Shown here in pieces: positions 13,827-16,998 of a stretch of DNA of 55,414 bases. The stretch is from Nitrospirota bacterium. GTDB taxonomy: Bacteria; Nitrospirota; Nitrospiria; Nitrospirales; Nitrospiraceae. Numbering within the stretch: the stretch's first letter is position 1; each line of letters opens with the position of its first letter. The stretch spans positions 1 to 55,414 of the forward strand of contig JAHRHE010000006.1 of assembly GCA_020027965.1 (NCBI GenBank). The letters run 5' to 3'. Made by a program: the position numbers and the translations under genes. The notes beneath the pieces were generated by a model, which saw only the letters and a program-made list of their open reading frames with translations, was not told the origin of the DNA and searched no databases.

Positions 13827-16433
13827 ATGGATATGAACCGGATGACGATCAAGCTTCAGGAGGCGCTACAAGCGGCCTCCGCGCACGCGATGCGGCGAAG
13901 CCACCAGGGCATCGACGTTGAGCATGCGCTGCTGGCGCTCCTCGAACAAGGCGAGGGCGGCATGGCCGCGCCTCTCTTCGAACAAGCCGGTGTCTCGGCG
14001 GCCGCCGTTCGCAACGCCGCCGAACAGGCGCTTTCCAAGCTGCCCCAGGTGCAGGGCCCTGGGGCCGGCCCAGGCCAGATCCACGTCACCGCCCGCCTCT
14101 CGCAGGTCCTCACCCGCGCCGAACAGGAGATGCAGGCCCTTCGGGACGACTACCTGAGCGTCGAACATATCCTGTTGGCCATGGTGGACGAGGGCGGAAT
14201 CTTCCGTCGACTCGGGCTGACGCGCGACCGGTTGCTGGCGGCTCTGCAGAAAGTCCGCGGCACCCAGCGCGTCACCAGCCAGGATCCGGAGGGGACCTAC
14301 CAGGCGCTCGAAAAATACGGCCGAGACCTCACCAGGCTGGCCGGCCAGGGCAAGCTGGACCCGGTGATCGGGCGGGACGATGAGATTCGACGCGTCATTC
14401 AGATCCTGTCCCGGCGCACCAAGAACAATCCGGTGCTGATCGGCGAGCCCGGTGTGGGAAAGACGGCGATCGTGGAGGGCCTCGCCCAACGGATCGTCAA
14501 AGGCGACGTGCCCGAGGGGCTCAAGCAAAAACGGCTGATCGTGCTGGATATGGGCGCGCTCATCGCGGGAGCCAAGTATCGCGGCGAGTTCGAAGAGCGG
14601 CTGAAGGCAGTGCTCAAAGAAGTCCAGGCAGCCCAAGGCCAGGTCCTGATGTTCATCGACGAACTCCACACTGTGGTGGGGGCCGGGGCCGCAGAGGGTG
14701 CCATGGATGCCGCCAACCTGCTCAAACCGATGCTGGCCCGGGGCGAACTACACATGATCGGCGCCACCACGCTGGACGAATACCGCAAGCACATCGAGAA
14801 GGATGCCGCGCTCGAGCGGAGATTCCAGCCCGTCCTGGTGGATCAGCCCTCCGTGGAAGATACCATTTCGATCCTTCGCGGCCTCAAAGAGCGGTACGAA
14901 GTCCACCACGGAGTCCGGATCAAGGACGCCGCGCTCGTCGCTGCCGCCCGGCTTTCGCACCGGTACATCGGCGACCGATTCCTGCCGGACAAAGCCATTG
15001 ACCTCGTCGACGAAGCGGCGGCCCGTCTGCGCACCGAGATCGACAGCCTCCCGGCTGAGCTCGACGAGGTTTCCCGCAAGGTGCTGCAGCTCGAGATCGA
15101 ACGCGAAGCGCTCCGCAAGGAGACCGATCCCGGCAGCCGCGCAAGACTCGCGACTCTGGAAGAGGAGCTCGCCGAGAAGCAAAGGGAACTCAATGCCCTG
15201 AAGGCTCGCTGGGAAGCAGAGAAGGCGTCCGTGGGTCGCTTACGTGCACTCCGACAGAAGATCGAGGGAGTAAAGCAGGAGATGGAGCGGGCGGAGCGCG
15301 CCTATGATCTCAATCGAGTCGCCGAGCTCCGGTATGGTGAATTACCCCGCCTGGAGCGTGAACTGGCCGCCGAGGAGCAGCATCTGGGCCAAGAGCAAGG
15401 TGAGAGCCGGTTGTTGAAGGAAGAGGTTGACGAGGAGGACATCGCGCTAGTCGTCAGCCGGTGGACGGGTATCCCCGTGAGCCGCCTGATGGAAGGCGAA
15501 ATGGACAAGCTCCTGCGGCTTCCCGATCTCCTGCACAAGCGCGTCGTGGGACAAGACGAGGCCGTTCGGGCAGTGGCGGACGCCGTGTTGCGGGCTCGCT
15601 CGGGCATCAAGGATCCGAACCGCCCGATCGGGTCATTTCTCTTCCTCGGTCCCACCGGCGTCGGCAAGACCGAGCTGGCGCGCGCGCTGGCCGCCACGCT
15701 GTTCGACGACGAAGGCAGCATGGTCAGGATCGACATGTCGGAATACATGGAAAAGCACACCGTTGCCAGGCTGATCGGGGCGCCCCCCGGCTACGTGGGC
15801 TACGAGGAAGGCGGACAACTCACAGAGGCGGTCCGCCGCAAACCCTTCTCAGTCATCCTGTTCGACGAGATCGAGAAGGCACACCACGATGTGTTCAACG
15901 TCCTGCTCCAGGTCCTCGATGACGGGCGCCTGACGGACTCACAAGGGCGTACGGTGGACTTCAAAAATACGGTGCTGATCATGACCTCGAACCTCGGCAG
16001 CCAGGACATCCTGGAAGCGCAGCAGCGGGGCGCATCTTACGAGGAAATGCGGGCTCTCGTGATGGCCGAGCTGAGCCACCACTTCCGCCCCGAATTCCTC
16101 AACCGAGTGGACGAGACCGTGGTCTTCCATCCGCTCACCGAGGTACACCTGGCGAAGATCGTGGACATTCAACTAGCCAAGTTGCGAGAACGGCTCGCTG
16201 AACGACGGATTCCCTTGGTCCTTACCCCGGCGGCCACGGCTGACCTTGCAAAGCGGGGATATGACCCAGTCTATGGCGCGCGGCCGCTCAAACGCTTGAT
16301 CCAACAGGACATCGAAACGCCGATCGCACACCTCCTGGTCAAAGGAGAGCTGCGCGACGGCGACACAGCGACGGTGGACGTCAAGAACGGCCAGATCTCA
16401 GTAATACCTACGGTTCAGGCACAGACCCACTAA
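13827..16433 (+). CDS. clpB: ClpB protein disaggregase
   Basis: An 868-residue hexameric AAA+ chaperone of normal length. The Clp N domain (residues 4-145) has two repeats of the [13 protein letters not shown] type. NBD1 has Walker A GEPGVGKT near residue 205, the coiled-coil middle domain spans about 400-530 ([12 protein letters not shown]...), and NBD2 has Walker A GPTGVGKT near 607 and the Walker B site ILFDEIEK. The tail ([29 protein letters not shown]) is the D2 small domain. It lacks the IGF/L loop of ClpA and ClpX, so it does not dock with ClpP, and with DnaK it refolds aggregates. GAGGTAGGAG lies upstream of the ATG. I see no clear heat-shock promoter or CIRCE element. Confidence 0.97.
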
Positions 16434-16468
16434 GCGTCCAGGCCGACAGCAGATCCCCTTGTCACCGA

Positions 16469-16576
16469 CTAGTGCCGTTCCAACTTATTGGCCTACCATC
16501 GGGCCAAAGATATGGTTAGCCGGTGCTTCAGGTACTACGGTGCCTACTATGGCTAAAACAGTTGGAACGGCACTAG
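16469..16576. mobile_element. 108-base MITE-like element with perfect inverted ends
   Basis: Sixteen-base perfect terminal inverted repeats, CTAGTGCCGTTCCAAC at 16469-16484 and its complement at 16561-16576, enclose 76 bases whose inner edges also pair imperfectly. The tetranucleotide CCGA stands immediately outside both ends (16465-16468 and 16577-16580), as expected for a target-site duplication. It encodes no protein, so it would be a non-autonomous element moved by a transposase elsewhere. It lies between clpB and the end of the next gene, and could also act as a hairpin terminator for both converging genes. Confidence 0.65.
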
Positions 16577-16998
16577 CCGATCACCACGGGTTTTCCTTGG
16601 AGATCGGTTTCCCCCTCAGTCATCCGAGTTCGTTCGAGACGCCACTCGGTCGGCAACACTTCCAAGCGATGCCCCTTTAACGTGAGGAAATCCCCCTTCC
16701 GCACCGCCACGCGTCCGTTGTCCATGAGCTCCACGTGGAGGACCACCTGTCTGGATTCGGGGTGCGTGATCGTGACGCTGGTCGGCGTTTTGGCCAGCTC
16801 ATACGCCCGACGCTCATTGAAGGCGAATGTACTGTCCACGACCTTGAGGATGATTTTGCCGGCCTCATCGAACAACACGAAGTTGAGCAGGACCGGTCCC
16901 CCCGGCCTCGGAAGTGAGAAGGTGATTTGAGGGACACCCTCGATTTCCACGGTTCCGTCCGTGTTGCGGTACAGATGCGAACCGATCTCAACGTCCAT
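16573..16998 (-). CDS. Hypothetical soluble protein, C-terminus ended by a MITE
   Basis: This 141-residue protein lacks signal and membrane segments. It looks mostly beta-stranded, with regularly spaced hydrophobic pairs (VEIEGVPQITFSL, VLLNFVLFD, VVLHVELMD) and an acidic character, and I do not recognise it. Its TAG stop is inside the right inverted repeat of the element at 16469-16576, so the insertion probably replaced the original C-terminus. Without the element and one CCGA copy, the frame would run on into the 3' end of clpB with no stop for about 19 codons, so the native end cannot be rebuilt with confidence. Confidence 0.6.
   Translation of the reverse strand: MDVEIGSHLYRNTDGTVEIEGVPQITFSLPRPGGPVLLNFVLFDEAGKIILKVVDSTFAFNERRAYELAKTPTSVTITHPESRQVVLHVELMDNGRVAVRKGDFLTLKGHRLEVLPTEWRLERTRMTEGETDLQGKPVVIG

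Follow-up and report, generated by a model that had tools for sequence, protein, structure and literature searches.

A non-coding element at a stop codon in Nitrospirota as a probable member of a cross-phylum family of GIY-YIG mini-transposons

The element found at positions 16469-16576 of a 55,414-nt stretch of Nitrospirota DNA (the window, by which the whole analysed stretch is meant) is best explained as a non-autonomous copy of a cross-phylum family of mini-transposons that encodes a GIY-YIG nuclease in its long form and is seated in stop codons. We put the probability of this explanation at roughly two in three. The element is repeated in its genome, its junctions show TA within CTAG, its position coincides exactly with the stop codon of a neighbouring gene, and its ends are linked to GIY-YIG genes. 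The GIY-YIG protein is the putative mobilising enzyme, as suggested by this linkage, by the selection acting on its gene and by the absence of an alternative enzyme.

The whole element comprises 108 bases, with CTAG at each end and no gene inside. Its inverted ends, CTAG included, lie at 16469-16485 (plus strand) and 16560-16576 (minus strand) and are perfect over 17 bases, i.e. over the 16 bases noted in a sequence-only reading of the window and one further base; the end pattern matches twice in the window, against 0.31 matches expected. The mobile unit is best read as a non-coding, non-autonomous core of 102 bp at 16472-16573 (GTGCCGTTCCAAC...GTTGGAACGGCAC), flanked by TA inside CTAG. From the ends of homologues and the junctions of the family, the TA at 16470-16471 would be one copy of the target duplication, the other copy being the TA at 16574-16575, which forms the first two bases of the TAG stop of the minus-strand gene. 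It had been proposed earlier that the duplication was CCGA. This 4-mer indeed flanks both ends (16465-16468 and 16577-16580, plus strand), but the 4-mers on the two sides are identical in only 1 of 141 elements, namely the window copy itself, so that the CCGA match is attributed to chance; outside CTAG, the flanking 4-mers share on average 1.15 of 4 bases over the 141 elements.

The junctions of the other elements agree with this delimitation. TA borders the core at 88-100% per position, the next base completes CTAG in 92-97%, and TA is present at both ends in 120 of the 141 elements, which fits a duplication of TA or of CTAG alike. Where elements abut, one CTAG is common to both (5 of 5 tandem junctions), which implies that CTAG is the target and no private part of each copy. 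In a comparison with two congeneric genomes (G400 and G401) one element was found to be absent from both, with an empty-site junction that is non-alignable.

The gene at whose end the window copy lies (16576-16998, minus strand) encodes a conserved protein of 141 amino acids and unknown function, which has no Pfam match and occurs in 94 of 98 family genomes. Its convergent neighbour clpB (13827-16433, plus strand) ends 38 bases ahead of the element core. In the TAG stop (16573-16575, minus strand) the TA stems from the target and the G is the last base of the element, and the earlier proposal that the element supplies the stop codon thus holds in an altered sense only, as the TA is that of the target's own stop. 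The same reading held that an insertion inside the gene had cut off and replaced the C-terminus. The position of the TAG inside the element's end and the CCGA on both sides gave reason for that view, which can nevertheless hardly be correct and was rejected on the basis of the homologues. Out of 29 that were read, one (L078) was left out since it is cut by a contig end; all 28 others are free of the element and 141 residues long, with IG or LG as the last two residues before the stop. Hence the C-terminus is intact, the empty site must have been GGC-TAG, and entry into the TA rebuilt the TAG. Against replacement also speaks, besides the single case of CCGA-type identity among 141 elements, that random insertion inside genes would give about one in-frame stop for every two out-of-frame events, whereas the observed ratio is 53 to 6.

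The description of the element as MITE-like is borne out by its copy number. Allowing up to 2 mismatches, we counted 41 occurrences of the end pattern in the source genome (3.6 Mb in 263 contigs), as compared to 10 of the reversed pattern, and the search for further paired ends yielded 13 copies that pass a strict pair filter. The window element thus has the anatomy of a MITE: it is short, non-coding and multi-copy and has perfect inverted ends. Searching with the whole element gave relatives with 72-78% identity across most of its length. Ends with no more than 1 mismatch are present in 21 of the 98 family genomes, with many copies in the source genome (G000) and in G031. Beyond the family, the 17-base end was found in at least 119 stretches from 85,000 species genomes. 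Since we estimate that chance alone would give about 30 single matches in 257 Gb, only paired ends were counted. Among the matches listed, such pairs have a TA-to-TA spacing close to 106 bp or, in the case of the long form, a spacing of around 317-324 bp, and they occur in records titled Gemmatimonadetes, Methylomirabilota, Acidobacteria, Tectomicrobia and Nitrospirae, as well as Beta-, Gamma- and Deltaproteobacteria, Omnitrophota and Armatimonadetes. At three Methylomirabilota loci (L218, L244 and L205), copies are nested and arranged in tandem.

The stop-codon position of the window copy recurs in the family. Insertion sites were classified after in silico removal of the elements, with genes called by our simple codon model; of 141 elements, 92 were classifiable after omission of 21 without TA at both ends, 12 at non-CTAG sites and 16 too near the end of a locus. 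These insertions lie in the stop codon of a gene (53), in intergenic DNA (33) or inside genes (6), as compared to 47, 104 and 193, respectively, for 344 ordinary CTAGs of the same loci. Insertions inside genes are depleted (P 1e-19), which is ascribed to purifying selection, and the best reading is that the family survives mainly in stop codons. Two genes of the source genome, which from their protein sequences we take to be apt and pilC, carry the same kind of insertion. The PilC homologues stop at the same residue in 24 of 26 other cases and one residue later in 2, and those of Apt at the same residue in 2 of 28 other cases and one residue earlier in 26.

The excess of stop over intergenic sites may reflect targeting. 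That the family actively seeks stop codons or the 3' ends of genes is a possibility that we hold to be rather doubtful, and it is compatible with the explanation preferred here. It is suggested by the ratio of stop to intergenic sites when only these are compared (53:33 against 47:104 for control CTAGs, P 6e-6), although intergenic CTAGs in the control may contain uncalled genes or sites under selection. With the sets restricted to the source genome and its family, the ratio is 13 to 7 (P 0.005), and two non-CTAG targets in the source genome, GTAG and TTAG, can also be read as stops of open reading frames, of 470 and 187 codons. We infer that selection, beyond targeting alone, causes the stop-codon excess.

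A role of the element in transcription termination, and more specifically the earlier idea that it could terminate both clpB and the 141-residue gene, is not supported. The broader view that such hairpins are kept by selection at gene ends as terminators or stabilisers of 3' mRNA ends, with mobility being secondary, agrees with the location of more than half of the classifiable copies at gene ends and with the ability of the element ends to pair strongly in RNA (z -7.5 and -6.4). We consider it improbable, as no intrinsic terminator (a GC-rich stem followed by a T run) is present at the window copy on either strand (0 sites), the interiors are without conserved structure (mean z -0.13, n 92) and no match to Rfam was obtained.

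An indication of how these elements may move comes from the longer members of the family. All 8 elements of at least 300 bp, a count that leaves out forms cut by a contig edge, encode a GIY-YIG nuclease of 93 amino acids, and 3 elements of 168-203 bp encode no GIY-YIG protein. The full-length form measures 307-375 bp and has this single gene, the reading frame of which crosses the right inverted end as ...KLERH, with the TAG or TAA of the junction as stop codon in most copies. All three of the proteins scanned scored above the Pfam cut-off for PF01541 (E 5e-9 to 6e-11), and a predicted structural model (mean pLDDT 82) resembles UPF0213, Slx1 and I-TevI according to Foldseek (best E 0.0056). 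A search with the protein in 45 genomes that bear the inverted ends gave 26 places, of which 14 are full length with both ends, 6 of these having been found first by this protein search. The other places comprise a 241-bp deletion form that retains both ends, three cut or truncated forms with one end visible, and eight more distant GIY-YIG genes that lack the ends; a GIY-YIG gene at L313 that scores 102 bits is likewise without them. No match was found in 27 of the 45 genomes, mostly MAGs, nor in plasmids or phages. The source genome contains no intact copy (0 at E 1e-12) and has a remnant of 49 residues adjoining a right end (L177). The gene is under purifying selection, with dN/dS values of 0.12-0.37 for pairs with unsaturated dS, and in one genome two copies with 92% alike coding sequences are located at unrelated sites.

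The connection between short and long forms is partly visible in the interiors. Matches to GIY-YIG elements occur in 12 of 128 short interiors, against 3 of 640 shuffled ones, and include four elements of the source genome (L175, L181, L003 and L004). The window copy resembles these four relatives and shows no direct match to the GIY-YIG gene; 116 of the 128 short interiors are without a trace of it. As many as 87 of the 128 short copies measure 101-103 bp, which makes a sharp length peak, although their interiors are mostly unrelated and unstructured.

A more conventional explanation would be that the element is an IS630/Tc1-mariner MITE moved in trans by a DDE transposase, with the GIY-YIG gene as a passenger. 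TA duplication and a preference for CTAG are properties of IS630, and DDE_3 domains occur in 50 of the 98 family genomes, both of which speak for the idea; still, we find it unlikely. The source genome itself gave no DDE_3 match, none of 30 examined DDE_3 loci is flanked by a pair of these ends, all 8 long forms are GIY-YIG elements, and the right end belongs to the GIY-YIG reading frame. Furthermore, a partner within 420 bp was found for 277 of the 311 good ends, and for no end did one lie at a distance of 420-3600 bp, which means that no classical transposase element with these ends was seen. An IS630 parent was thus sought via DDE_3 in the source and family genomes and via the ends, and none was found. 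The proposal that a transposase with matching ends might exist has therefore had a mixed outcome: no DDE transposase emerged, and a GIY-YIG gene with the same ends did.

On the preferred explanation, the family would insert at CTAG and leave TA on both sides, with the GIY-YIG protein cutting CTAG and the element ends and thereby driving movement. The cuts perhaps leave TA overhangs, as those of I-TevI do. If the CTAG contains the TAG stop of a gene, the terminal G of the element would rebuild the stop upon entry, and as a consequence the host protein would remain unchanged. Insertions of this kind would persist and those inside genes would be lost. The window copy probably entered the GGC-TAG end of the conserved 141-residue gene, and the short forms would be the non-autonomous members of the mini-transposon family.

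Transposon classes are defined by the catalytic domain, namely DDE, HUH, tyrosine, serine or Cas1, and to our knowledge no transposon with inverted ends relies on GIY-YIG catalysis. Nor was a description of a GIY-YIG transposon with inverted ends, or of the present elements, found in the open-access journal literature searched. A further proposal, which is tentative and to which we give somewhat less than even odds, is that there is a class of bacterial DNA transposons that rely on one enzyme only, a GIY-YIG nuclease with a single domain and about 93 residues; this nuclease would cut CTAG, move ends that carry CTAG, and target stop codons, where an insertion leaves the host protein unaltered. 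The solo GIY-YIG genes at L307 and L325, which are enclosed by unrelated inverted repeats, would then represent sister families. At L307 (1445-1823; contig C127 of the source genome), 28-base inverted repeats (TGTCATCCTGAG...GGATCTC, 89%) enclose a second, distant solo GIY-YIG gene, and a further partial copy exists. At L325 (1482-1828), a GIY-YIG gene lies inside perfect 17-base inverted repeats (TATACCCCACACCTTTT) with a span of 347 bp, and 0 of 114 flank control windows were this good. The locus L313 has a cluster of ACCCCGTTAGA repeats (36-444) and a solo GIY-YIG gene on the same contig, and by eye the solo Nitrospirota genes at L315, L321 and L323 appear to adjoin tRNA-like sequence. If the proposal is true, GIY-YIG elements, with their length of about 310 bp, would form an added transposon class and rank among the smallest autonomous transposons, and a probable function could be assigned to the many solo GIY-YIG genes seen in environmental genomes. 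Seating in stop codons would be a simple strategy by which a parasite remains harmless in gene-dense genomes, and it provides a testable rule for where elements are located.

Among known systems, REPIN/RAYT likewise combines a small nuclease gene with many short, non-autonomous palindromic copies, but RAYT is a HUH Y1 enzyme, whereas the ends found here are inverted repeats at CTAG. Like the present elements, IS630/Tc1-mariner MITEs are some 100-170 bp long, have inverted ends with a TA on either side, and possess a short form that encodes no protein; the long form of the present family, in contrast, encodes a GIY-YIG and no DDE protein. The same set of features applies to the enterobacterial RU/ERIC repeats, for which in-frame fusions that extend proteins are described (PMC2759123), while in the present family the stop codon is rebuilt exactly. 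Finally, the nuclease domain of the long form is also that of the single-domain proteins UPF0213 and Slx1 and of GIY-YIG homing endonucleases such as I-TevI. Homing is the copying of a mobile sequence into the cognate allele (PMC1564403). Instead of being copied into one cognate site, the long form has its gene between inverted repeats, occupies many unrelated sites and is accompanied by non-coding derivatives.
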